Shown here: positions 51,613 to 64,000 of the stretch, piece after piece
Position numbering within the stretch: position 1 is the first letter of the stretch
Layout: the number at the start of each line of letters is the position of its first letter
NCBI RefSeq assembly: GCF_004331485.1
Contig: NZ_SJKD01000001.1
Coordinates: 1,488,001-1,552,000, forward strand
DNA: 64,000 nt
Direction: 5' to 3'
Source of the DNA: Kribbella capetownensis
GTDB taxonomy: Bacteria; Actinomycetota; Actinomycetes; Propionibacteriales; Kribbellaceae
Notes under the pieces: model-generated
Told to the model about the DNA's origin: nothing
Seen by the model: the letters and a program-made list of their open reading frames with translations, nothing else
Database searches by the model: none
Translations under genes and position numbers: made by a program

Positions 51613-53519
51613 CTGCCTACCTCCGCCCCCGCGAAGGCGACCCCGCCCGAGTCGGTCCGCCGACGCCCGTCAACATCACCGTGGACGGCGAACCGGTCAC
51701 CGCCCTAGCCGGCCAAACAGTCGCCGCCGCTCTGCTCGCCACCGGCCGAGACACCTGGCGAACCACCCGTGTCGCCTCACGCCCCCGCGGCGTCTTCTGC
51801 GGCATCGGCGCCTGCCAAGACTGCCTCGTCATAGTCAACGGCACTCCCGACATCCGAGCCTGCCAACGCACAGTCGAGCCCGGAGACGCCATCGCAACCC
51901 AGACAGGCGCCGTCCTACCCGCAGACGGGCAGAGAGACGACGAAGCCGCACCCGAGCTGAAGGCACGGGGCGAGACGTCAGCCACCTCCGACGCGGAGCC
52001 TCGGGGATGGACGGGCGGGGCGTCCGCCATCCCCGACCTGCAGCCTTCGGCGGATCTGGCCCCGGCGCCGCCCCGTCCCACTTCCACCTCGAATGTCCCG
52101 CGGGTGACTGACGTGGTTGTGGTGGGGGCTGGGCCAGCGGGGATCGCCGCAGCTTTGGCGGCTGCGGATGGTGGAGCGTCGGTGGTTTTGATTGACACCG
52201 GGCGGAGTGTGGGCGGTCAGTTCAACCGGCAACTGCCTGCGGAATTCATGGCTCGGCGGGCGGGACGACTGCAGCACGGCTGGAAAGGATTCGTCGCGCA
52301 GCGGGATCGGCTAGCGGCGCATGAGCGGATCACACATCTCGCGGAGACCTCCGTGTGGGCAATGGAAGGCCTCCGGCTCTGGGTGCAACGAGGACCAGCA
52401 GACAGCGTCGGACGGGAGATCTTCGCAGTTGACGCCAAGGCAATCGTCCTAGCCACAGGAGCATACGATCGCGTACTGCCCTTCCCTGGTTGGGATCTGC
52501 CAGGCGTCTACAGCGCCGGCGCCGCCCAAGCACTGGCCAAAGGACAACGCATCTCCGTCGGCAAACGCGTACTCGTCGCAGGCACCGGCCCGTTCCTCCT
52601 ACCGGTCGCAGAGTCCCTCATCGGAGTAGGCGCCGAGGTAGTCGAGCTGCTCGAAGCCAACACCCTGCGAACCGTCCGCCGAGGTTGGCTCACCAACCCA
52701 CTAGTTGCCTCCAGCAAATTCCGAGAGGCCCTCGGGTACGGCGCCCTGCTGGCGAAGCACCGCATTCCGCTCCGACACGGCTGGACCGTCGTCGCTGCAG
52801 ACGGAACCGACCACGTCGAAGCCGTCACCGTCGTACGGCTGGACGACTCATGGCACCCGATCGCGGGCTCCGAGCGACGCATCGAGGTCGACGCCGTCTG
52901 TCTCGGCTTCGGCTTCACCGCTCAACTCGAGCTCGCTGTCTCCGCCCGCTGCAACCTCACGACCGGTCCCGACGGTGGCCCGGCAGTCGTCGTCGACCCC
53001 CACCAAGAAACCACCACTCCGGGTGTGTTCGCAGCCGGCGAGCTCACCGGAATCGGCGGCGCAGACCTAGCAGCCGCCGAAGGCCGATTAGCCGGCGCCT
53101 CCGCCGCCTATCACGCGGGAGGTGGCGAGCCAGGACCATCTGGTCCTGGGGCAGTCGCAAACCGCGTAGACCAGGCGGAGGCGCGGGAGGCCGGGGTGCG
53201 GGGGCGACGGTTTGCGGAGGTGTTGGCGCGGGCTTATCCGGTGCGGGACGGGTGGCGAGCGTGGAGTACGGCCGAGACCGTGGTGTGCCGGTGTGAGGAA
53301 GTCACGCGCGGAGAGATCGAAGCGGCTGTGGCAGGACGTGGTGTGCAGGACGGTCGGGCGCTGAAGCTCAGCAGCCGGGCCGGACTGGGGATGTGTCAGG
53401 GACGGGTCTGTTCGCGGACCGTCGGTGCGCTGGTTGGTGCACCGGAATCATCGATGAAACGACCGATCGCCGTGCCGGTGAGGCTGCGGGATCTGGCAGA
53501 GGCTCAGGAGGATCTGTGA
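51609..53519 (+). CDS. fused [2Fe-2S]/FAD/BFD hydroxyproline dehydrogenase subunit
   Basis: The 636-residue protein joins three parts: a 2Fe-2S domain with Cys64, Cys69, Cys72 and Cys85 (GVFCGIGACQDC), a large FAD/NAD domain (VVVGAGPAGIAAALAAADGG, then KAIVLATGAYDR), and a C-terminal bacterioferritin-associated-type cysteine cluster (CRCEEVTRG, GMCQGRVC). In Pseudomonas-type pathways these are separate subunits. It works with the upstream flavoenzyme and overlaps it and the next gene by four bases each. Confidence 0.85.
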   Translation: MTAYLRPREGDPARVGPPTPVNITVDGEPVTALAGQTVAAALLATGRDTWRTTRVASRPRGVFCGIGACQDCLVIVNGTPDIRACQRTVEPGDAIATQTGAVLPADGQRDDEAAPELKARGETSATSDAEPRGWTGGASAIPDLQPSADLAPAPPRPTSTSNVPRVTDVVVVGAGPAGIAAALAAADGGASVVLIDTGRSVGGQFNRQLPAEFMARRAGRLQHGWKGFVAQRDRLAAHERITHLAETSVWAMEGLRLWVQRGPADSVGREIFAVDAKAIVLATGAYDRVLPFPGWDLPGVYSAGAAQALAKGQRISVGKRVLVAGTGPFLLPVAESLIGVGAEVVELLEANTLRTVRRGWLTNPLVASSKFREALGYGALLAKHRIPLRHGWTVVAADGTDHVEAVTVVRLDDSWHPIAGSERRIEVDAVCLGFGFTAQLELAVSARCNLTTGPDGGPAVVVDPHQETTTPGVFAAGELTGIGGADLAAAEGRLAGASAAYHAGGGEPGPSGPGAVANRVDQAEAREAGVRGRRFAEVLARAYPVRDGWRAWSTAETVVCRCEEVTRGEIEAAVAGRGVQDGRALKLSSRAGLGMCQGRVCSRTVGALVGAPESSMKRPIAVPVRLRDLAEAQEDL

Positions 53520-54418
53520 CCGAGAAGTTGGAAGGCGTGATCGTTGCGACCGCGTTGCCGTACGCCGAGGACGCGTCGGCGCCGGCAGGTTTGCGTCCGG
53601 ACCTGGACAAGTACGCCGAGCACTGCCGGTGGCTGGTCGACAACGGCTGCCGTGGGGTAGGCCCGAACGGCTCCCTCGGCGAGTACTCGTCGCTGACCGA
53701 TGACGAGCGCCGAGCCGTCGCCCGCACCGCAATCGAGGCCGTCGGCAACGATGGCATCGTGGTGGTCGGCGTGCACGGCGTCGGTGCACACCAGGCCCGC
53801 GGCTGGGCTGAGAAGGCGGCCGAGGACGGTGCAACCGGCGTACTCTGCCTGCCGCCGACCATGTACCGCGCAAACCGCGGCGAGGTGATCCACCACTTCA
53901 CCGAGGTCGCCAAGGCCGGCCTGCCGGTGATGGTCTACAACAACCCGCACGACACCAAGGTCGATCTGACCCCGGACCTGCTGGGCGAGATCGCGCAGAT
54001 CGAGAACATCGTCGCGGTCAAGGAGTTCTCCGGCGACGTCCGCCGGATCCTCGAGATCCGTGAGCTCGCCCCGGACCTGGCCGTCATCGCCGGCGCCGAC
54101 GACCTGACTCTCGAGGCTCTGCTGATGGGTGCGACCGGCTGGTTCGCCGGCTTCCCGAACGTGTTCCCGAAGGAATCGGTCCGCTTGTTCGACCTCGCCG
54201 TCCAAGGCAAGCTGGAAGAGGCGCGGGCGTTGTACGAGCCGCTGGTCGCCGCGTTCCGGTGGGATTCGCGGACCGAGTTCGTCCAGGCGATCAAGTACGG
54301 CATGGACTACGTCGGCCGGTACGGCGGTCCGTGCCGCCCACCGCGTGGACCCCTGGTGCCCGAGCACCTCGCCCAACTGGAGCAGGACATGAAGAAGGCA
54401 GTGGAGTCGCTGCGATGA
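53516..54418 (+). CDS. DapA-family pyrroline-4-hydroxy-2-carboxylate deaminase
   Basis: The 300-residue protein is a DapA-type barrel starting at GTG. The Schiff-base lysine is Lys169 (IVAVKEFSGD) and the proton-relay tyrosine is Tyr141 (MVYNNP). Position in the operon suggests deamination of the product of the flavoenzymes to 2-oxoglutarate semialdehyde. The assignment to this reaction, rather than another aldolase, is inferred from context. Confidence 0.85.
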   Translation: MTEKLEGVIVATALPYAEDASAPAGLRPDLDKYAEHCRWLVDNGCRGVGPNGSLGEYSSLTDDERRAVARTAIEAVGNDGIVVVGVHGVGAHQARGWAEKAAEDGATGVLCLPPTMYRANRGEVIHHFTEVAKAGLPVMVYNNPHDTKVDLTPDLLGEIAQIENIVAVKEFSGDVRRILEIRELAPDLAVIAGADDLTLEALLMGATGWFAGFPNVFPKESVRLFDLAVQGKLEEARALYEPLVAAFRWDSRTEFVQAIKYGMDYVGRYGGPCRPPRGPLVPEHLAQLEQDMKKAVESLR

Positions 54419-55416
54419 GGTCCATCCGGACCATCAGCGCGATCGACTCGCACACCGAGGGGATGCCGACCCGCGTCGTCACCGGCGGGGTCGGCGTCGT
54501 CCCCGGTGCGACGATGGCCGAGCGGCGCGAGTACTTCATCAAGCACCTGGACGACCTGCGGTTGTTCCTGATGAACGAGCCGCGCGGACATTCGGCGATG
54601 AGCGGCGCGATCCTGCAGCCGCCGACCCGGTCCGACGCCGACTGGGGCGTGCTGTACATCGAGGTGTCCGGCCTGCTGCCGATGTGCGGGCACGGCACCA
54701 TCGGCGTCGCCACCGTGCTGGTCGAGTCCGGCATGGTCGAGGTGACCGAGCCGATCACCAAGGTCCGCCTCGACACCCCGGCCGGCCTGGTCGTCGTCGA
54801 CGTTGCCGTCAGCAACGGACGGGCCGAGCACGTCACGTTGCGCAATGTTCCGTCGTACAGCCATGCACTGGACGCGACGGTGGACGTTCCGGGACTCGGG
54901 AAGCTGACCTACGACCTCGCGTACGGCGGCAACTTCTACGCGATCCTGCCGTTGGAGCAGCTCGGCCTCCCGTTCGACCGGGCCGAGAAGGACCGGATCC
55001 TGCAGGCCGGGCTGGACATCATGGACGCGATCAACGCGACCGACCGGCCCGTGCATCCGCTCGATCCGGGGATCAACGGGTGTAAGCACGTGCAGTTCAC
55101 CGCGCCCGGTCTCGACGGTGCGGATTCGCGGAACGCGATGGCGATCCATCCGGGGTGGTTCGACCGGTCCCCGTGTGGGACGGGTACGTCGGCCCGGATG
55201 GCGCAACTGCATGCCCGCGGAGAGCTCGCCCTCAACACCGACTTCGTGAACGAGTCGTTCATCGGCACCCGCTTCACCGGGCGCCTGATCGAGCAAACCA
55301 CGGTCGGTCCACACCCGGGCGTCGTACCAACCGTCACCGGCCGAGCCTGGATCACCGGAACCGCCAACTACCTCCTCGACCCCGACGACCCGTTCCCCGC
55401 CGGCTTCGTCCTCTAG
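54415..55416 (+). CDS. 4-hydroxyproline 2-epimerase / proline racemase family
   Basis: The 333-residue protein has the two catalytic cysteines, Cys91 (PMCGHGTIG) and Cys254 (SPCGTGTSA), so it is an active racemase/epimerase, not a dehydratase with Thr. The first step of hydroxyproline use is conversion of trans-4-hydroxy-L-proline to cis-4-hydroxy-D-proline. Its ATG overlaps the stop of the deaminase gene. Confidence 0.88.
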   Translation: MRSIRTISAIDSHTEGMPTRVVTGGVGVVPGATMAERREYFIKHLDDLRLFLMNEPRGHSAMSGAILQPPTRSDADWGVLYIEVSGLLPMCGHGTIGVATVLVESGMVEVTEPITKVRLDTPAGLVVVDVAVSNGRAEHVTLRNVPSYSHALDATVDVPGLGKLTYDLAYGGNFYAILPLEQLGLPFDRAEKDRILQAGLDIMDAINATDRPVHPLDPGINGCKHVQFTAPGLDGADSRNAMAIHPGWFDRSPCGTGTSARMAQLHARGELALNTDFVNESFIGTRFTGRLIEQTTVGPHPGVVPTVTGRAWITGTANYLLDPDDPFPAGFVL

Positions 55417-55507
55417 CCCGGCGATCGCCCGCACACCCGGTCCGGCAGTCACCTGCACGCCGGGTCCGGGTTGTCTGTCGGTCGGTCGTGGGGCGGCGGT
55501 CGCCTGG

Positions 55508-55858
55508 CTAGTTGAGGTGGTTCTGCCAGTCGGGCGGGACGTTGCCGCCCGGCGCCGGCTGGTCGACCGGGTGGGACTCCGGCGGAGCGAGCGCAGGACC
55601 CTCGTAGTACTGCGACTCGCCGTAGTGCCAGAACCAGTCCTCGCCCGGCTCGAAGCTGCGCACGATCTGATGCCCGGTCGTGGACGCGTGAGCCGACGCG
55701 TGCTGCTCGGGGGAGGAGTCACAGCATCCGATATGCCCGCACTGCGCGCACCGGCGCAGATGGAACCACCAGCCGCCGGCCGCCAGGCACTCCGCGCACC
55801 CGGTCCCGCTCGGCGGAACCGTGCTGTCGATTCCCGGTGTCCCAGAACTCTCCGTCAT
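55508..55858 (-). CDS. UBP-type zinc-finger protein
   Basis: The 116-residue protein has a UBP zinc finger: CAECLAAGGWWFHLRRCAQCGHIGCC with His residues in SSPEQHASAHASTTGHQIV, followed by GEDWFWHY. Small proteins of this type are frequent in actinobacteria, and their role is unknown. An in-frame start upstream exists, but MTESSG is natural. Confidence 0.85.
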   Translation of the reverse strand: MTESSGTPGIDSTVPPSGTGCAECLAAGGWWFHLRRCAQCGHIGCCDSSPEQHASAHASTTGHQIVRSFEPGEDWFWHYGESQYYEGPALAPPESHPVDQPAPGGNVPPDWQNHLN

Positions 55859-55936
55859 ACCGCACATCCTCGCCTGCCCACCGCCCCCAAACAAGCAGCC
55901 CAGGTACGCGCGAGCGCCCGCCGGTTGTGGCTCGTC

Positions 55937-56575
55937 CTACTCGGGCCAGTCGGAGTTCTTGATCACGTCGACGAAGTTGCCGCGGTGGAAACCGGGGACG
56001 AAATGCTCAAGGACATCGGCCTTCACGTTCCCGAAGGTCGTCTCCGGCCGGTCCTTGATGCCCTCGGTGAACGCGGCCAGGATCCGGTTCTTGAAGTCCG
56101 GCCGCGGATGCGCCGCGACCACGGCGGCCCGCTGCTCGTCGGTGACCGCTCGATAACCGATGCCGAGGACGTCCAGTTCTACCCCGCGAGTGACGAGCGC
56201 GATCTCGGCCGCCATGTGCAACGGGATCTCCGGGGTCGTGTGCAGAGCGATGCCGGTCCAGACCCGATCGGCCGGCTCCCCGGTCACACCGTGCGCGTGC
56301 AGGAAGCGGCGCGCTTCGTCGGCGCCGTCGATCTCGAACCGCTGGTCGGTACGACGGAACTCGCCGGTCAGACCGAGGTCGTGGAACATCGCGCCGACGT
56401 ACAGCAACTCCGGATCGAACTCGAGGCCCTGCTCCCGGCCGCGCAACGCACCGAACAGGAAGACCCGGCGCGAATGATCGAACAGCAGCGGCGGCGCCAC
56501 CTCACGCACCAGTTCGGTCGCCTCGCGGGCCAGGGCGCTGTCCGGGATCCGTACCCCGGCGATCTCTTCACTCAT
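55937..56575 (-). CDS. HD-domain hydrolase
   Basis: The 212-residue protein has an HD metal site: LFDHSRRVFLFG, YVGAMFHDLGLTGE and a following ALHTTPEIP segment. It resembles HD hydrolases of the cyanamide hydratase type, but no substrate can be read. It is divergent from the GlxA-type regulator across 71 bases. Confidence 0.85.
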   Translation of the reverse strand: MSEEIAGVRIPDSALAREATELVREVAPPLLFDHSRRVFLFGALRGREQGLEFDPELLYVGAMFHDLGLTGEFRRTDQRFEIDGADEARRFLHAHGVTGEPADRVWTGIALHTTPEIPLHMAAEIALVTRGVELDVLGIGYRAVTDEQRAAVVAAHPRPDFKNRILAAFTEGIKDRPETTFGNVKADVLEHFVPGFHRGNFVDVIKNSDWPE

Positions 56576-56646
56576 CGTCGTTCTGCCTTCCTGGTGTGGC
56601 CTCGTCTCTGTGCATCCAGATTCGCCGGAGTGGCTACGCTGGTGCC

Positions 56647-57624
56647 ATGTCCAGAACGCCACATGAACCACAGATTCGGACAGGCCGGATCGCCCTCGTG
56701 GTGTTCGACGGCGTGACCCTCCTCGACGTCAGCGGCCCTCTCGAGGTCCTTCACCAGGCGAACCGCAACGGCGCCCGGTACGAGTCGACCCTCGTCTCGC
56801 CGGCCGGCGGAGACATTGCGACGTCCTCCGGCCCGACCCTCGCCGGCACCACGGCAGCAGCCGGGGCAGGTCCCTTCGACACGGTGATGGTCGCGGGAGC
56901 CGACCACCTGGTCGATCGAGTGCCCGACGACCTCCTCGCCGCCGTCCGCGCTCTAGCGGACCAGGCCGGCCGGGTGGCGTCTGTCTGCACGGGTGCCTTC
57001 GTCCTCGCAGCACTTGGGCTCCTGGACGGCCGGAGCGCCACGACCCACTGGCGACATGCCCAGACCCTCGCCCGCCGGTATCCGTCCGTGCGTGTCGAAC
57101 CGGACGCGCTACACATCCACGACGACCGGTACGTGACCTCGGCCGGCATCAGCGCCGGAATCGACCTGACCCTCGCCCTCGTCGAGGCGGACCATGGCGC
57201 ACAGGTCGCTCGCGAGATCGCCCGGGAGCTGGTCGTCTTCATGCAACGACCCGGCGGTCAATCCCAGTTCTCCACGGCGATCGCCACCCCACCGCCTCGC
57301 AGCGACCCACTCCGAGCAGTGACCGAAGCCGTGGTCGCCGACCCCGCCGCTGACCACAGCCTGTCCGCACTGGCTGCGTCCGCTGCCATCAGTGCGCGAC
57401 ACCTCGCTCGCCTGTTCCGCACCGAGTTCCACACCACGCCGGCCCGCTGGGTCGAACGTGTACGCCTCGATCGCGCCCAGCAACTCCTCCTCGACGGCCA
57501 CAGCATCACCTCAGCCGCCCGGCTCAGTGGCCTCGGCAGTGACGAAACCCTCCGCCGGGCCTTCGCCAGACACCTGGGCACCACCCCGACCGAATACCTC
57601 CGCCGCTTCCGCGCTGCGGGCTGA
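56647..57624 (+). CDS. GlxA-type regulator (DJ-1/PfpI plus AraC domain)
   Basis: The 325-residue protein joins an N-terminal DJ-1/PfpI-like domain (IALVVFDGVTLLDVSGPLEV, SVCTGAFVLAALGLLDGR) and a C-terminal AraC helix-turn-helix (ISARHLARLFRTEFHTTPARW). The cysteine in VCTGAF matches the position of the DJ-1 nucleophile. It may control the HD-domain gene. Confidence 0.9.
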   Translation: MSRTPHEPQIRTGRIALVVFDGVTLLDVSGPLEVLHQANRNGARYESTLVSPAGGDIATSSGPTLAGTTAAAGAGPFDTVMVAGADHLVDRVPDDLLAAVRALADQAGRVASVCTGAFVLAALGLLDGRSATTHWRHAQTLARRYPSVRVEPDALHIHDDRYVTSAGISAGIDLTLALVEADHGAQVAREIARELVVFMQRPGGQSQFSTAIATPPPRSDPLRAVTEAVVADPAADHSLSALAASAAISARHLARLFRTEFHTTPARWVERVRLDRAQQLLLDGHSITSAARLSGLGSDETLRRAFARHLGTTPTEYLRRFRAAG

Positions 57625-57680
57625 CCTCAGAGTCAAGAAGAGGACATAACCTGTCCGCTTCCTGCTGCACACTCGGAGAC

Positions 57681-58190
57681 ATGACGCAGACAACGCAGCA
57701 GCTCCCCGGTGGCAAGTCGACGATCACGCCGTACGTCGTGGTGAAGGGCGCCGCTCGCTTCCTCGACTTCGTCGAGCACACCTTCGAGGTCCGCACCAGC
57801 CTTCGCGTCCCCAACCCGGACGGCACCATTGGCCACGCCGAAGTGACCGTAGGCCACTCGGTTCTCATGACCTTCGACGCGGCTCCGGACTGGCAGGACA
57901 CGCCCACCTTCCTGAGCGTGTACGTCGATGACGTCGACAAGACCTACGTCCGCGCCCTCGACGCCGGCGCAACCGTCGTCACCCCGCTGATGTACTCCGG
58001 CATCACCGGCGACCGCGGCTGCCGAGTCAAAGACCCTTTCGGCAACATCTGGTGGCTCCAAACCCACCTCCAAGACGTGGACCCCGCCACCCTCCCCGAC
58101 CTCTTCGCCAACCCAACCGAACAAGCCACCATCCGCGAAGCCCAACAATCCTTCGCCACAGAAATGCAGACCAGAACCACCAGCCAGTGA
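57681..58190 (+). CDS. VOC (glyoxalase-fold) protein, PhnB-like
   Basis: The 169-residue protein has a PhnB-like pattern: TITPYVVVKGAARFLDFVEHTF, MTFDAAPDW, and RGCRVKDPFGNIWWLQTH. It ends three bases before the convergent TetR gene. Function unknown. Confidence 0.85.
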   Translation: MTQTTQQLPGGKSTITPYVVVKGAARFLDFVEHTFEVRTSLRVPNPDGTIGHAEVTVGHSVLMTFDAAPDWQDTPTFLSVYVDDVDKTYVRALDAGATVVTPLMYSGITGDRGCRVKDPFGNIWWLQTHLQDVDPATLPDLFANPTEQATIREAQQSFATEMQTRTTSQ

Positions 58191-58193
58191 GCT

Positions 58194-58766
58194 TCAGCGG
58201 TTGGTTTGGGTGGTGATGTGTTCGAAGAGGCCTGGGTGGATTTGGGTGCGTACGCCGTTCGCCCAGGGTTCGTCCAGGTCGGTGATGTCGAGGGCGGCGA
58301 CGTTGTTCAGGAGCATGCCGTAGGCGAGGAACGACTTCACTGTGACTGGGTCCAGGCCGGTGGTGTCGGCAACCGTGTCCCACATGTGGGCGAGGCAGGC
58401 TCGGACGAGGTCGCGGACGTCGGGGTCTCCGCAGGCGGCGAAGCCTTGGAGTTGGAGCAGGAGGGTGGTGCGGTCGGCGAGCAGTTCGTAGTACTGCGAA
58501 CCCATCAGCGTCAGCGCATCAAGGCCTTGCTTGCCCTCGGCGGCTTGGGACATGCCGTCGCTGAAGCGGTCGAAGGCTGCGCCGACCAGCTCCAGGAACA
58601 GCGCCTTCTTGGTCCCGAACATCCGGAACACGTACGCCTGCGTGATGCCGGCCTCGCGGGCGATCGCCTCGATCGACGCACCGTGCAGTCCATGATCCGC
58701 GAACTCGCGACCGGCGATCCCCAACAACTGGGATCGCCGTTCCGAGCCCCTCATCCGCGCAGCCAT
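58194..58766 (-). CDS. TetR-family transcriptional regulator
   Basis: The 190-residue protein has a TetR helix-turn-helix (QLLGIAGREFADHGLHGASI, then GITQAYVFRMFGTKKALF) and a helical ligand domain. It is divergent from the methyltransferase gene, with an A/T-rich repeat region between that is its likely operator. Confidence 0.88.
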   Translation of the reverse strand: MAARMRGSERRSQLLGIAGREFADHGLHGASIEAIAREAGITQAYVFRMFGTKKALFLELVGAAFDRFSDGMSQAAEGKQGLDALTLMGSQYYELLADRTTLLLQLQGFAACGDPDVRDLVRACLAHMWDTVADTTGLDPVTVKSFLAYGMLLNNVAALDITDLDEPWANGVRTQIHPGLFEHITTQTNR

Positions 58767-58781
58767 GATGACTAGGTTACT

Positions 58782-58792
58782 AGTTACTAACT
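58782..58792. promoter_or_regulatory. AGTTACTAACT palindrome, TetR operator candidate
   Basis: AGTTA-C-TAACT is a perfect 5-bp inverted repeat within a cluster of TAAC/GTTA units between the TetR and methyltransferase genes. The cluster also covers the likely methyltransferase promoter. Confidence 0.6.
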
Positions 58793-58813
58793 ACTAACTT
58801 GTACGGTGGTGAG

Positions 58814-59608
58814 GTGGACACTGACACCTGGGCTGGTTTGGTCGACCAATTCGCCGATGGGGCGTACGCCACGGTGAAGGGGCGAGTGCGCACGTACGTG
58901 ATGCACCAGCAGTTGCTGGAGCATCTGCCACCGCCGCCCGCGTCTGTGCTCGACGTCGGAGCCGGCGCGGGCCATCAGTCGTTCCCGTTGGCGCAAGCCG
59001 GGTACGACGTGACGTTGCTCGATCCGTCACCCGCGATGCTGGACAAGGCGCGGCAGCGACTCGAGCGACTGCCCGCTGAGGCCCAGCGGCGAGTGACGTT
59101 CGTGGAGGCCGATGGCGCGAACGCCGTCGAAGCGGTCAACGGCCGGCGCTTCGACGCTGTGCTGTGCCATGGAGTGCTCGGATACCTCGAGCACCAGGAG
59201 CCGGTGCTCGACCAGCTGTGCCTGTGCGCTGCCCCCGGCGGCCTGGTCTCGATCATGGCGGGCAGCGCCAACACGTCCGCGGTGCGCCCGGCCATGGAAC
59301 GGCGCTGGGACGACGCCCTCGCAGCATTCGACGCCACGGAAGAGATAGGAGTACTCGGCCTGCTGACCCGAGCCCACACGGTCGAGCAACTCACAGACCT
59401 CCTGCGAAGCCGCGACGTCGAGGCCTTCCGCTGGTACGGCGTATGGCACTTCGTCGACTGGCTGGATCTCGCCGGAGCCGACCTCGACCCCACCGACACA
59501 AAACAACTACAAGCAACAGCCGCAGTAGAACTAGAAGCCAGCCGCCGAGACCCCTACCGCCAACTCAGCCGAATCTTCCACCTCACAGGCCGCAAAGGCC
59601 CCACCTGA
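58814..59608 (+). CDS. class I SAM-dependent methyltransferase
   Basis: The 264-residue protein has motif I VLDVGAGAGHQSFPLAQAG, VTLLDPSPAMLDKARQRL and FDAVLCHGVLGYLEH. The frame is open from a TTG at 58799; the GTG at 58814 fits better, but no clear ribosome site precedes either, so a leaderless message is possible. The target is unknown; the TetR neighbour may regulate it. Confidence 0.85.
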   Translation: MDTDTWAGLVDQFADGAYATVKGRVRTYVMHQQLLEHLPPPPASVLDVGAGAGHQSFPLAQAGYDVTLLDPSPAMLDKARQRLERLPAEAQRRVTFVEADGANAVEAVNGRRFDAVLCHGVLGYLEHQEPVLDQLCLCAAPGGLVSIMAGSANTSAVRPAMERRWDDALAAFDATEEIGVLGLLTRAHTVEQLTDLLRSRDVEAFRWYGVWHFVDWLDLAGADLDPTDTKQLQATAAVELEASRRDPYRQLSRIFHLTGRKGPT

Positions 59609-59651
59609 CGGAGACCGTCGGCCGGAGCGCGCGTAGCTGACGTGTCGGGGG

Positions 59652-60485
59652 CTATATGAAGCGGAGGGGTTGGCCGGGGCGGAGTTGGGCGCAGGGGTTG
59701 ACCTCGGGGTCGGTGAGGTAGGCGATGACTGGGTAGCCGCCGGTGACGGGGTGGTCGGCGAGGAAGATTACGGGGAGGCCTGAGGGTGGGATTTGGATGG
59801 CGCCCAGGGTCATGCCTTCGCTGGCCAGTTCGCCGGTGCGGGCGCGTTCGAGGGGTTTGCCGTCGAGGCGGACGCCGACGCGGTTGCTGTTGCTGCTGAC
59901 GGCGTACGACTGGGTGGTGAAGGTGGTCCACGCGGCGTCGGTGAACCAGTCGCGGCGGGGGCCGGGGGTTACGCGTACGACGACTTCGCCGGCAGGCGGG
60001 TCCGCGACGGGGGCGAGGTCCACCCCGGGCATCACGTCGTACGAGCAGCCGACCGGCAGGGTCTGGCCGGCGGTGAGGGGTGCCGGGCCGAGGCCGGAGA
60101 GGAGGTCGGTCGAGCGCGAGCCGAGGACCGGCGGTACGTCGATTCCGCCGCGGGCGGCGACGTACGTGCGGAGTCCGGTCCGCGGCGGGCCGAGTCGGAG
60201 TACCTGGCCGGACCTGATCACGGCTGGTGCGTTGAGCGGGACGCCGGGGCAGGGTGCGCCGGTGATGGCGATGGTCAGGTCGGCGTCGGCGTGCAGTACG
60301 AGACCGCCGAAGGTGACCTCGATCGCGGCGGCACCGTCACGGTTTCCGACCAGGCGGTTGGCGAGTGCGTACGACGCGCGGTCGCAGGCGCCGGACGTGG
60401 GGATGCCGAGGGATGCCTGGCCGACTCTGCCGGCGTCCTGGATTGTTGCTAAAGGCCCCGTTTCGAGGATGGTGAGGCTGGTCAT
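59652..60485 (-). CDS. pxpC: 5-oxoprolinase subunit C
   Basis: The 277-residue protein is of the biotin-dependent carboxyltransferase/KipA type: TILETGPLATIQDAGRVGQ, the GIPTSGACDRASYALANRLV region and PVIFLADHPVTGGYPVIA. PxpABC cleaves 5-oxoproline with ATP to glutamate. Its ATG overlaps the pxpB stop by four bases. Last gene of the operon in this window. Confidence 0.92.
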   Translation of the reverse strand: MTSLTILETGPLATIQDAGRVGQASLGIPTSGACDRASYALANRLVGNRDGAAAIEVTFGGLVLHADADLTIAITGAPCPGVPLNAPAVIRSGQVLRLGPPRTGLRTYVAARGGIDVPPVLGSRSTDLLSGLGPAPLTAGQTLPVGCSYDVMPGVDLAPVADPPAGEVVVRVTPGPRRDWFTDAAWTTFTTQSYAVSSNSNRVGVRLDGKPLERARTGELASEGMTLGAIQIPPSGLPVIFLADHPVTGGYPVIAYLTDPEVNPCAQLRPGQPLRFI

Positions 60486-61087
60486 CCACGGCCCGCGTCG
60501 ACGAACCGGACCCGGCGGCCCGGATGGAACAGAGCGGCGGGATCGCGCTCCTGGTCGAAGATCTTCACGTCGGTCCGCCCGATCAGCTGCCACCCGCCCG
60601 GCGATTCTCGCGGGTACACCCCACTGAACTCTCCGGCCAGAGCCACGGCTCCCGTCGGCACCTTCGTCCGTGGGGATTGACGTCGTGGGATGTCCCAGGT
60701 CGCGGACGACGTGAGGTAGCCGAAGCCGGGGGAGAAGCCGCAGAAGGCGACGGTCCACTCCTCGCCGGTATGCCGTTGGACGACCTCGGACACAGAGCAG
60801 TCAAGAACGAGAGCGACGTCCTCGAGATCCTCGCCGTCGTAGGTCACCGGAAGCTCGATCAGGTCCCCGACCGCGTGGGCTCCGTCAGCAGGTGTGACAG
60901 CGCGCAGGGCGCGAGACAGCGCGTCCAAACCCCCGGAGGTCGTGACCATGACGGTGCGGGCGGCGGGGACGATGTCGATGACGTCGGCAGGTGGTGAGGC
61001 GGTGAGGGCGGTGTAGTAGCCGAGGACCTGGTCGAGGGTGTCGAGTTCGACCAGGAGTGCGTGGTCGCCGGAAGGCAGGATCCGCAT
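60482..61087 (-). CDS. pxpB: 5-oxoprolinase subunit B
   Basis: The 201-residue protein is of the KipI/PxpB type: RILPSGDHALLVELDTLDQVL, the conserved YDGEDLEDVA and the catalytic-region FCGFSPGFGYL. Length is typical. It overlaps pxpA by one base and pxpC by four. Confidence 0.92.
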   Translation of the reverse strand: MRILPSGDHALLVELDTLDQVLGYYTALTASPPADVIDIVPAARTVMVTTSGGLDALSRALRAVTPADGAHAVGDLIELPVTYDGEDLEDVALVLDCSVSEVVQRHTGEEWTVAFCGFSPGFGYLTSSATWDIPRRQSPRTKVPTGAVALAGEFSGVYPRESPGGWQLIGRTDVKIFDQERDPAALFHPGRRVRFVDAGRG

Positions 61088-61839
61088 CACTGGGCGAACG
61101 GGCTCAACGTCACGCCCGCCCCCTCCATCGCGGACCTGACCCGGCGCGCGATGTCGACCGCTCCCGGCGTATCGCCGTGCACGCAGATCGAGGCAGGCTC
61201 GACCTTCAGGGTCCCACCCTCGATGTCGTGGATCGGCTGCCCGGTGGCCATCGCCGTACACCGCGCAGCGATCTCGTCCGCGTCATGCAGCACCGATCCG
61301 GCCTCACGCCGCGACACCAAGGTCCCGGAGGGCGTGTACGCACGGTCCGCGAAAGCCTCGTGTACGACGGGCAGCCCGGCGTCGGCCGCGAGTCGCAGCC
61401 ACGCCGACCCGGGCAGGCCGAGCACCGGCAGCGACCGGTCGTAGTCGGCGACCGCGTCCACGACAGCCGCGGCCTGCTCGAGGTGGTGGCCGATCGTGTT
61501 GTACAGCGCACCGTGCGGCTTCACGTACCGGACCCGGTCACCGGCGATCCGCGCGAAGCCGTCCAGCGCGGCGATCTGGTACACGACCTCGTCGCGCAGC
61601 GCGGACGGCTCGATGTCGACGAAGCGCCGCCCGAACCCGGCCTTGTCGGCGTACCCCACATGGGCCCCGATCGCCACACCACGCGAGACTGCCCGCGCTG
61701 TCACTCGGCGCATGATCGACGGGTCGCCGGCGTGGAAGCCGCAGGCCACGTTGGCGCTGGTGACGACGTCCAGCAGGGCGTCGTCGTCACCCATCGGCCA
61801 CGATCCGAATCCCTCGCCGAGATCGGCATTGAGGTCCAT
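61087..61839 (-). CDS. pxpA: 5-oxoprolinase subunit A
   Basis: The 250-residue protein is a LamB/YcsF-family subunit: MDLNADLGEGFG, NVACGFHAGDPSIM, YVKPHGALYN and ASICVHGDTPGAV. GGAGGA before ATG 61839 is decisive over the GTG two codons upstream. It follows the transporter gene by 15 bases. Confidence 0.93.
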   Translation of the reverse strand: MDLNADLGEGFGSWPMGDDDALLDVVTSANVACGFHAGDPSIMRRVTARAVSRGVAIGAHVGYADKAGFGRRFVDIEPSALRDEVVYQIAALDGFARIAGDRVRYVKPHGALYNTIGHHLEQAAAVVDAVADYDRSLPVLGLPGSAWLRLAADAGLPVVHEAFADRAYTPSGTLVSRREAGSVLHDADEIAARCTAMATGQPIHDIEGGTLKVEPASICVHGDTPGAVDIARRVRSAMEGAGVTLSPFAQ

Positions 61840-61854
61840 GAACACTCCTCCAAG

Positions 61855-63168
61855 TTAGAACAGGGCGACGATCGAACGAACGGCCAGATACACGGTGAGC
61901 AGCCAGGCCGCGCCACCAAGACAGAGCAGCCAGCGCGGGTAGCGGTGACCGCGGAGCAGGTCGGGACGCTGCCACGCCACCCAGAGAAGCACGCCGACGC
62001 CCAGCGGCAACAGCAGCCCGTTGAACGCTCCCGCGAACACGAGCAGCCGGGCGGGCGCCGTACCGACGGCCAGGAAGATCACCGTGCTGACCGCGATGAA
62101 CAGCACGACGAGAACAGTCCTCGTCCCCTCCGACGTCTTCGTCCGCGAGGTGACGAACGTGACGGTCGTGTACGCCGCTCCGATCACGCAGGCGATCGAG
62201 GCCGCCCACAACACCACGCCGAAGGCGCGCAGCCCGACTTCGCCGGCCGCGTGCTGGAACGCCGATGCGGTCGGGTTGTCCGGATCGAGGGTCGCTCCAC
62301 CGGCGACGACCCCGAGTACGGCGAGGAAGAGGGCGACCCGCATCAGGCCGGTGAGCAGGATCCCGCCGACCGCCGCGCGGCTGATGTCCCGGACGTACGG
62401 CGGCCCGGACACCCCGGAGTCGAGGAGCCGGTGGGCACCGGCGTACATGATGTAGCCGCCGATCGTTCCACCGATCAGGGTGGTGATGACGAGGAACTCC
62501 GCGTGGGACGGCAGTACGACGTTCCGCAGCGCCTGGCCGACCGGTGGGTCCGAGGTGATCGCGACGTACCCGGTGAGCAGGATGATCACGCTGCCGAGAG
62601 TGATCACCAGGCGATCCATCGCGACCCCGGCCCGCCGGGACAAGAAGATGCCGATGGCAATGACTGCGGAGAGTGCACCACCGAGCCGCGGATCCAGCCC
62701 GATCATGGCGTCGGTGCCGAGCCCGGTGCCGGAGACGTTGCCGATCGTGAACACGAGCCCGCCGGCGAACAGCAGTGCGGACATCGCCGTACCGAGTCTG
62801 GGCGCGACCAGGTTGCCGAGCTCCTGGGCCCGGCGCCCGGAGACGCCGATCACCCGCCACACGTTCAGTTGCACCGCGATGTCGACCAGCACCGAGACGA
62901 CGATCGCGAACGCGAACGCCGCGCCGAGCGACACCGTGAACAGCGTGGTCTGGGTGATGAAGCCCGGCCCGATCGCGGAGGTGGCCATCAGGAACATGGC
63001 GCCGATCAGCGTCGACCGGTTGCCGGTCTTCATGACGTTGTCCGGCGTCTTGCGCCCGGCCGCGGGGGCGAGCCGGCGGGCATAGGGATTGGTCCGGCGC
63101 ACCACCGGTTTCGTGGTGGGGCGGCGGGGAGGCTTCGCGCGGTACGGCCGCGAGGTGGGCATCGGCAT
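61855..63168 (-). CDS. NRAMP-fold transporter lacking the metal motif
   Basis: The 437-residue protein has a basic N-terminal tail of about 50 residues and about 11 membrane segments with an NRAMP-like pattern. The first helix reads GPGFITQTTLF (67-77) where metal-transporting NRAMP proteins have a DPGN motif, so the metal-binding aspartate and asparagine are missing. The sixth-helix MPH motif is also absent (GGYIMYAGAHRLL). Genes of this type (ycsG) accompany ycsF/kipI in Bacillus. I infer a 5-oxoproline or related organic substrate. Confidence 0.85.
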   Translation of the reverse strand: MPMPTSRPYRAKPPRRPTTKPVVRRTNPYARRLAPAAGRKTPDNVMKTGNRSTLIGAMFLMATSAIGPGFITQTTLFTVSLGAAFAFAIVVSVLVDIAVQLNVWRVIGVSGRRAQELGNLVAPRLGTAMSALLFAGGLVFTIGNVSGTGLGTDAMIGLDPRLGGALSAVIAIGIFLSRRAGVAMDRLVITLGSVIILLTGYVAITSDPPVGQALRNVVLPSHAEFLVITTLIGGTIGGYIMYAGAHRLLDSGVSGPPYVRDISRAAVGGILLTGLMRVALFLAVLGVVAGGATLDPDNPTASAFQHAAGEVGLRAFGVVLWAASIACVIGAAYTTVTFVTSRTKTSEGTRTVLVVLFIAVSTVIFLAVGTAPARLLVFAGAFNGLLLPLGVGVLLWVAWQRPDLLRGHRYPRWLLCLGGAAWLLTVYLAVRSIVALF

Positions 63169-63249
63169 GGCGGGGTCTCCTCGGTCGAACGGGCTGCTGT
63201 CGGGATCGACTCCATGGCTGTGAGTAACGAGTGATGACTCGAGCGTAGA

Positions 63250-63264
63250 GATTGTTCAACAATC
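63250..63264. promoter_or_regulatory. GATTGTT-C-AACAATC palindrome, GntR operator
   Basis: This perfect 7-bp inverted repeat with a one-base centre lies between the divergent transporter and GntR genes and contains TTGT-n3-ACAA, which matches the FadR-subfamily consensus TnGTnnnACnA. It is the likely binding site for the GntR protein starting at 63326. Confidence 0.8.
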
Positions 63265-63325
63265 CTGCAAGAGTCTTGTTCCACTAAACTTCCCCTCACC
63301 GCCTCGGGTGGGCGATGATGCGGAG

Positions 63326-64000
63326 ATGAGCACGGGTGGGGCCGACGAGGGCCGGCAGGCATGGTTGCGGACAGTGGCCGCCGATGTCGCGCGGCTGGAC
63401 CGCAGCAGTTCGGCCGAGCGGGCCGCCGACATCCTGCGCCGCAGCATCACCGAGGGCGCGTTGCCGCCGGGCGCTCAGCTCTCCGAGATCGAGCTGACCG
63501 AGGTCCTGGAGGTCAGCCGGAACACGCTGCGGGAAGCGTTCCGGCTGCTCACCCACGAAGGGCTGCTGGTCTACAAGCTGCACCGCGGGGTCTTCGTCCC
63601 GGAGCTGGACGAGCGGGACGTGATCGACCTGTACCGGCTCCGCCGCGTCCTCGAGGTCGACGTCGTCCGTGGTCTGGCCGAGCGCGACCCGGAGCTGCCG
63701 GCCGGCCGGCTCGAGCCGTTGCAGGCCGACGTCGAAGCCGCCGAGGCAGCCGCGCTCGTCGACCGCTGGCCGGCCGTCGGTACGGCGAACATGCGGTTCC
63801 ACGAGCACCTGATCGGACTGGCCGACAGCACGCGGATGGATGCGATGACCGGACGCCTGCTGGCCGAGTTGCGGCTGCTCTTCCACGTGATCGCGACCCC
63901 GCGCGAGCTGCACGAGCCGTACATCGCGCGCAACCGCGGGCTGTACGAACTGCTCGAGGCGCGCAAGTACGAGCAGGCCGCGGCCGACCTGCATCAGTAC
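63326..64000 (+). CDS. GntR/FadR-family regulator (3' end beyond the window)
   Basis: The frame starts at ATG with MSTGGADEGRQAWLRTVAAD and continues open to the window edge. It has a GntR winged helix (RSITEGALPPGAQLSEIELT, then EVSRNTLREAFRLL) at about residues 35-85 and an FCD helical domain (DVIDLYRLRRVLEV, MRFHEHLIGLADSTRMD) with histidine ligands that often bind a metal. It is divergent from the 5-oxoproline operon, so control by 5-oxoproline or glutamate is likely. The true end is outside the window. Confidence 0.85.
   Translation, partial: MSTGGADEGRQAWLRTVAADVARLDRSSSAERAADILRRSITEGALPPGAQLSEIELTEVLEVSRNTLREAFRLLTHEGLLVYKLHRGVFVPELDERDVIDLYRLRRVLEVDVVRGLAERDPELPAGRLEPLQADVEAAEAAALVDRWPAVGTANMRFHEHLIGLADSTRMDAMTGRLLAELRLLFHVIATPRELHEPYIARNRGLYELLEARKYEQAAADLHQY

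Follow-up and report, generated by a model that had tools for sequence, protein, structure and literature searches.

The cargo of the PxpT/YcsG family of transporters is disputed in print, with Mn2+ claimed in two papers and 5-oxoproline in one. According to the excerpted text of PMC13274462 (2026), pxpT of Corynebacterium glutamicum is required for growth on 5-oxoproline, a plasmid-borne pxpT restored this growth to the deletion mutant, the operator of the regulator PxpR was identified and PxpR binds 5-oxoproline; the same growth need is cited there for ycsG of Bacillus subtilis. YcsG (MntG) and MumT of Acinetobacter baumannii were proposed as Mn importers in PMC10448178 and PMC5050338, and the preprint PMC12873925 describes Nramp-related proteins without both metal motifs, puts MntG in their 'G-motif 3' group and terms the groups besides G-motif 3 and the NRMT-like one uncharacterized (these three papers are likewise cited from excerpts). 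In this article we analyse a stretch of 64,000 nucleotides of Kribbella capetownensis (contig NZ_SJKD01000001.1, positions 1,488,001 to 1,552,000; hereafter the window, with positions counted from its first letter), which carries a pxpR-pxpTABC locus and thereby adds a member to this disputed family.

We consider it very probable that the transporter of the window is a LeuT-fold secondary carrier of the PxpT/YcsG family importing 5-oxoproline, and that PxpABC and PxpR complete the pathway. The ortholog of this transporter was already proposed as a 5-oxoproline transporter in the cited part of PMC13274462. New in the present work is the evidence from the regulon, from the switch of partner enzymes and from a control set, which favours 5-oxoproline over Mn, together with a hint of a second lineage.

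Results

Organization and orthology of the locus

The locus consists of the following features:

61855-63168, minus strand: NRAMP-fold transporter, pxpT ortholog (437 aa, ATG start; open reading frame and Pfam Nramp)
61087-61845, minus strand: pxpA, 5-oxoprolinase subunit A (252 aa, GTG start; Pfam LamB_YcsF, 329 bits)
60482-61087, minus strand: pxpB, 5-oxoprolinase subunit B (201 aa, ATG start; Pfam CT_C_D, 193 bits)
59652-60485, minus strand: pxpC, 5-oxoprolinase subunit C (277 aa, ATG start; Pfam CT_A_B, 283 bits)
63249-63265, strand not assigned: PxpR operator (16 of 17 bases equal to the C. glutamicum site)
63308-64000, plus strand, continuing past the window end: pxpR ortholog, GntR/FCD regulator (Pfam GntR and FCD)

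On the minus strand the transporter gene is followed by pxpA, pxpB and pxpC, and the pxpR gene is divergent. A gap of 9 bp lies between the transporter gene and pxpA, pxpA and pxpB overlap by 1 base and pxpB and pxpC by 4 bases, the start and stop codons of the last two genes having been verified on the sequence. The transporter scored 56.5 bits with Pfam Nramp (cut-off 29.8), and PxpA reached 357 bits with the NCBIfam PxpA model, above its cut-off. All three subunits are encoded in one operon, PxpB and PxpC being under the NCBIfam equivalog cut-offs (PxpB with 122 bits for TIGR00370; PxpC under that of NF045499 and above that of TIGR00724). An earlier note made from the letters of the window alone, called here the original prediction, had placed the transporter gene next to pxpABC, which is borne out by the open reading frames, Pfam and NCBIfam; the coordinates it gave, 61087-63168, cover the transporter and pxpA but leave pxpB and pxpC outside.

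Identity to the C. glutamicum counterparts is 52% for the transporter (PxpT) and 37% for the regulator, whose gene has the same position, and the order of the divergent regulator gene, the transporter and subunits A, B and C is common to both loci. The C. glutamicum gene was located via a primer given in PMC13274462, for which one of 242 genomes of one genus had a match; since the matched locus also carries the other primer, the PxpR and GlxR sites of that paper and a 436-aa protein of the published length, we take it to be the C. glutamicum pxp locus. Distant matches had let the window protein appear as a branch apart from PxpT, an idea that fell once C. glutamicum PxpT was found. In the tree the eight PxpT-type rows form one group (100/100), and on sequence grounds the window transporter is assigned to the PxpT/YcsG family, that is to the G-motif 3 Nramp-related group as far as the excerpt of PMC12873925 describes it. 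Its nearest homologs in named genomes are mostly Kribbella loci, with up to 96% identity among the best 80 of 420 relatives, and none was found in the viral contigs scanned.

A phmmer search of the transporter against the PDB sequences gave no match, though Foldseek found the YCSG chain of PDB 9a52 with 48% identity. In the AlphaFold2 model of the transporter (mean predicted local distance difference test, pLDDT, 82.5; predicted template modelling score 0.81; residues 23-47 below a pLDDT of 50) helices are interrupted at residues 66-67, where GPG lies, and at residues 236-237, where GGY lies. The best structural match of the model was the YCSG chain of 9a52, an integrative model (Z 47.4); Deinococcus radiodurans MntH (6d91, Z 42.2), EleNRMT (Z 37.9) and AdiC, an amino-acid carrier (Z 33.4), came next in this order. 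Judged from this model the protein has a LeuT-type NRAMP fold; a fold match shows no function.

The PxpR operator and the regulon

The site at 63249-63265 is the only one in the 64-kb window with up to 4 mismatches to the C. glutamicum operator, and its 13-base core is expected, with up to 1 mismatch, 0.01 times per shuffled window. The site was also sought in 19 split loci, in which the transporter gene is set apart from pxpABC and the two are oriented towards each other: 11 have the operator at both promoters, 3 only at that of the transporter and 5 at neither. In the 301 kb of these loci all 28 sites with up to 3 mismatches sit at transporter or pxpABC promoters, and a single mononucleotide shuffle (n=1) gave none. 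Where the transporter of a split locus has an operator of its own, it is therefore part of the predicted 5-oxoproline regulon.

Loss of the metal-ligand residues

The canonical NRAMP ligands, DPGN in transmembrane helix 1 (TM1) and MPH in TM6, are both absent from the window protein, which has GPGF and GGY at these places, whereas the canonical NRAMP of the same genome (L001) has DPGN and MPH. It could be rejected that this is an oddity of a single protein: when 140 homologous loci were aligned with the window protein, all 140 had glycine in place of the DPGN Asp, and glycine and tyrosine in place of the MPH Met and His, while the DPGN Asn is replaced by F in 138 and by V in 2. Thus the absence of the two motifs, noticed in the original prediction, recurs in all loci aligned. 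Gln73, Thr74, Tyr239 and His246 are invariant in the 140 loci, and Arg247 is conserved in 139 and replaced by Lys in 1. These loci represent 133 distinct sequences, some species standing twice, and include C. glutamicum PxpT, a MumT-like protein and plasmid homologs. Of the 80 named loci, 44 entered the fold alignment (A2) together with the window protein; two with a stop inside the match range (L134 and L156) were left out, and L137 and L179 were dropped alongside, the stop not being checked in these two.

The genome of the window encodes other NRAMP proteins as well. The canonical one scored 355 bits and a third one 175 bits, compared with 57 bits for the window protein. Of the NRAMP-family proteins of this genome, L002 (1402-2895, minus strand) has DIGD in TM1 and MTPYE in TM6 and groups with L319 on a long branch of the tree.

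Linkage to 5-oxoproline genes

When the best 80 of the 420 relatives in named genomes were scanned, a pxp gene was found within 6 kb in 76, and in the remaining four (L169, L176, L180 and L181, L176 being truncated by a contig end) a D-glutamate cyclase homolog adjoins the transporter gene. Two genome samples, 296 genomes of the class and 201 of another family, gave 44 homologs with at least 49% identity, the window excluded. Their flanks were read over 1.5 kb first, and the 12 that had no pxp gene there were re-examined with wider flanks of up to 9 kb. All 44 lie near a 5-oxoproline-related gene: 42 near a pxp gene, one near an OPLAH-type gene (G592) and one near a D-glutamate cyclase homolog only (G686). 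The 44 do not include L211, a second fragment of the gene already represented by L205, or L206-L210 and L234-L239, whose matches are distant or partial; L014, a 19-residue remnant, was not counted as a homolog. The named and sampled collections share species, and the two sets are consequently not independent.

The control consisted of 40 NRAMPs with different motifs (11 with DPGN and 29 with other motifs; by construction none of the GPG type), which were examined in the same respect. With E up to 1e-6 and distances of up to 7 kb, none had a homolog of a pxp gene, of D-glutamate cyclase, of biotin carboxylase or of hydantoinase/oxoprolinase, several of the stretches being cut by contig ends. 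The control was drawn at about every fourth row among the NRAMP matches listed; rows of the window's own genome and distant hits were replaced by neighbouring rows and two rows were added. That the pxp linkage is a local accident was rejected, as it recurs across named and sampled homologs.

Exchange of partner enzymes and of the transporter

In two of two genomes of one genus (G592 and G1004) a PxpR-like gene, the operator and the transporter are followed by a hydantoinase/oxoprolinase fusion of ~1226 aa, which replaces pxpABC. This OPLAH-type fusion would presumably act on 5-oxoproline. Among 24 other genomes of the window's genus the transporter stands beside pxpA and pxpB in 8, pxpABC is found without it in 15, and one (G019) has neither intact. 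The 15 genomes carry a regulator with 89-94% identity, and no open reading frame with six or more strong hydrophobic peaks was detected within 5 kb in them; it may be that pxpABC alone serves internal repair and that an added transporter serves scavenging. G019 has no pxpA match and encodes an OPLAH-type fusion 67% identical to that of G592. A 19-residue remnant of the transporter stands at the start of this fusion gene (L260, 7324-7380, minus strand).

The transporter itself may also be exchanged. In L041 a carrier of the major facilitator superfamily (MFS) sits between the regulator gene and pxpA, with an operator-like site at 4 mismatches. Near pxpA in L059, L063, L065 and L073 there is a transporter-sized open reading frame beside a PxpR-like gene, which is MFS by Pfam in the two scanned (L059 and L065); no operator site with up to 3 mismatches was present in these four loci.

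In A. baumannii (L242, 5688-13148) a LysR-like open reading frame and the transporter homolog are followed by homologs of PxpA, D-glutamate cyclase, a fused PxpBC and biotin carboxylase. By gene order we take this to be the mum operon; the LysR identity is our reading of the beginning of the open reading frame only. The gene content of L242 is pxp-like, whereas mumH and mumC were described in the excerpted PMC5050338 as urea-degrading genes. Plasmid operons of Klebsiella (L243, 5992-12162), Rhizobium (L246, 5941-12195) and Paracoccus (L247, 5998-12059) have the transporter and PxpA among their genes, together with a putative hydro-lyase, a urea-amidolyase-type protein and a biotin carboxylase, which hints at a biotin-dependent variant of the enzyme. 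In the Klebsiella operon the hydro-lyase has a D-glutamate cyclase domain and the urea-amidolyase-type protein has PxpB and PxpC regions.

A second GPG-motif lineage

Distant NRAMPs with GPGTVTT in TM1, 19-30% identical to the window protein, fall into the subgroups N016 and N061, which join each other in the tree (100/99) apart from PxpT. The tree was midpoint-rooted for drawing only, and its long branches meet at PxpT, so that the deep joins are unsure. HyuA- and HyuB-type neighbours occur in 5 of 7 N016 loci, 4 of these 5 also having a D-glutamate cyclase homolog. The other two N016 loci are without those enzymes, one (L272) belonging to the genus of C. glutamicum and the other (L273) having a PxpR-like gene together with a site that resembles the operator, with 3 mismatches. 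Among the open reading frames scanned near the N016 homolog of genome G578 there was no 5-oxoproline enzyme, and L270 and L276 (28-30% identity to N016), which have no such neighbours, were kept out of the N016 count. As regards N061, pxpA lies within 5 kb of the NRAMP gene in 4 of 6 genomes and on another contig in the other two (G308 and G104); the four loci read were picked as pxpA holders, their NRAMP genes being found independently. These data give a hint of a second NRAMP lineage linked to 5-oxoproline genes. A limited literature search found nothing joining NRAMP with D-glutamate cyclase or with hydantoinase.

The members read of a third group, N277, have GPGN or GPGA in TM1, and none of the 5-oxoproline neighbours was found in its six loci (L274, L277, L278, L279, L280 and L281; 6/6). 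Therefore the GPG motif alone does not predict 5-oxoproline.

Other genes of the window

About 4 kb from the pxp operon, at 53393-55416 on the plus strand, there are dihydrodipicolinate-synthase-like and proline racemase/hydroxyproline epimerase-like genes, which suggests a hydroxyproline catabolic cluster.

Discussion

In the pathway proposed for the window the transporter would bring 5-oxoproline, the cyclised form of glutamate, into the cell, PxpABC would open it to glutamate with ATP, and the divergently encoded GntR repressor PxpR would sense cytoplasmic 5-oxoproline and release the operator between pxpR and the transporter gene. By analogy with its relatives the window protein itself would be the one that moves 5-oxoproline, and this transport may be ion-coupled. 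Amino-acid carriers have a GxG in TM1, and GPGF can be likened to it; the carboxylate of 5-oxoproline might be held by the backbone amides at this break, with the invariant Gln73, Thr74, Tyr239 and His246 nearby. The original prediction had named the same cargo, which emerges as the best supported one and which the cited part of PMC13274462 had already put forward for the ortholog. It had also asked whether the same protein is equally frequent in genomes without pxp genes. This is not so, given that 42 of the 44 sampled homologs have a pxp gene nearby and the other two an OPLAH-type or a D-glutamate cyclase gene.

Several observations weigh against 5-oxoproline import. Linkage is not transport, and the converse link is weak, many genomes carrying pxpABC without the transporter: in the phylum sample pxpA is present in 66 of 296 genomes and a PxpT-type match only in that of the window, and in the window's own genus 15 of the 24 other genomes have pxpABC and lack the transporter. 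In the other 71 named loci a site near the transporter start was found in 40 with up to 4 mismatches and in 27 with up to 3. The nearest solved relative (PDB) of the OPLAH-type fusion is an N-methylhydantoinase. The evidence on PxpT given in PMC13274462 is growth, and the paper itself states that metal transport by PxpT cannot be excluded. According to PMC10448178, as excerpted, overexpression of YcsG/MntG raised cell Mn and an mntH mntA ycsG triple mutant was only obtained with an extra ycsG copy; deletion of mumT lowered cell Mn as determined by inductively coupled plasma mass spectrometry, was complemented in trans, and increased Mn tolerance (excerpt of PMC5050338). An A. baumannii record contains a MumT-like homolog of 417 aa with 47% identity to the window protein and the same TM1 and TM6 motifs.

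These cell-level Mn data on two family members are the main argument for the alternative that the transporter imports Mn, or another divalent metal, and feeds the 5-oxoprolinase or nitrogen metabolism, as proposed for MntG (YcsG) and MumT. It is further favoured by the binding of MntR to the B. subtilis pxpA promoter (excerpt of PMC10448178), where it is also said that the 5-oxoproline phenotype of the ycsG mutant might be polar, and by Pfam and the annotation of plasmid homologs, which say NRAMP metal transporter. Metal transport, the observation that the original prediction had named as speaking against its cargo, is thus claimed in print for YcsG/MntG and MumT, and the claim is contested. 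We nevertheless regard a Mn importer as improbable. In all loci aligned other residues stand for the Asp of DPGN and for Met and His of MPH, with F or V for the Asn; the operator of a 5-oxoproline repressor stands at both the transporter and pxpA in 11 of the 19 split loci; the transporter also accompanies the OPLAH-type enzyme; a non-homologous MFS carrier occupies the slot between regulator and pxpA in L041; and plasmid-borne pxpT restores growth of the mutant on 5-oxoproline, as the excerpted PMC13274462 reports. The idea of a known RNA element in the operon region, for instance a Mn riboswitch, was also rejected, no Rfam family having matched at 55000-64000 of the window with E up to 0.1. 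It is the conserved operator, the switch of the partner enzyme and the loss of the metal ligands that together favour 5-oxoproline over Mn for the family.

Transport of both cargoes, 5-oxoproline being carried together with a divalent cation or as its chelate and both published sets of phenotypes being direct, would reconcile the growth data of C. glutamicum with the Mn data of B. subtilis and A. baumannii, and EleNRMT, which is Nramp-related and lacks the canonical motif, is nevertheless described in the excerpt of PMC12873925 as moving Mg2+ and Mn2+; but nothing in the sequence requires it and there is no acidic residue at the canonical ligand positions, which makes this explanation very improbable in our judgement. 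That another compound of the pathway, such as D-glutamate or 5-oxo-D-proline, is carried instead of 5-oxo-L-proline can practically be dismissed, for although homologs of D-glutamate cyclase (PF07286 in those members that were scanned) are frequent neighbours (L169, L176, L180, L181 and several split loci) and also occur in the plasmid operons, annotated there as putative hydro-lyase, a tblastn search of the window (E up to 1e-5) gave none, and growth of C. glutamicum on 5-oxo-L-proline requires PxpT according to the cited text of PMC13274462.

Beyond the window, a broader reading of 5-oxoproline import can be offered tentatively, as a possibility that we hold to be rather doubtful as a whole: much of the GPG-motif Nramp-related set would be carriers of 5-oxoproline or related glutamate derivatives, not of metals, and at least two separate lineages (PxpT and GPGTVTT) would take part in the metabolism of 5-oxoproline or D-glutamate, alongside enzymes of three unrelated types (PxpABC, hydantoinase/oxoprolinase and D-glutamate cyclase); the ancestral state would be a cargo resembling an amino acid, held at a GxG-type break of TM1, the DPGN metal site would be later, and MntG and MumT would be misassigned as Mn importers. 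If this were true, a family annotated as divalent metal transporters in most of the plasmid records examined would be mis-annotated, and NRAMP metal transport may have arisen from an organic-acid carrier. The original prediction had spoken of an NRAMP branch that changed its substrate class; the difference of cargo from metal is supported, but the direction may be reversed, because in the rooted tree of the excerpted PMC12873925 the Nramp-related proteins are paraphyletic with respect to the canonical metal transporters.

Comparison with known systems

The pxpR-pxpTABC locus of C. glutamicum resembles that of the window in transporter sequence (52% identity), gene order, divergent GntR gene, operator (16/17) and TM1 and TM6 motifs, and differs in the position of the operator, whose centre is 65 bp from the transporter start in the cited part of PMC13274462 versus ~89 bp in the window. 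B. subtilis YcsG/MntG shares 48% identity (Foldseek), is the best structural match and is likewise encoded in a pxp operon, but according to the excerpt of PMC10448178 it is a Mn importer, with AhrC, MntR, CcpA, TnrA and KipR as regulators. As regards A. baumannii MumT, the MumT-like protein is 47% identical, has the same motifs and lies beside pxp-type homologs, whereas a LysR-type regulator apparently stands where the window has GntR, and MumT is reported as a Mn importer (PMC5050338, excerpt). The canonical NRAMP/MntH proteins have the fold (D. radiodurans MntH, Z 42.2) and Pfam Nramp in common with the window protein, which is without their DPGN and MPH ligands and only ~12-18% identical to them. 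Finally, the Nramp-related Mg transporter EleNRMT is alike in fold (Z 37.9) and, as far as the cited part of PMC12873925 goes, also without the canonical metal motif, but its identity to the window protein is 18%.

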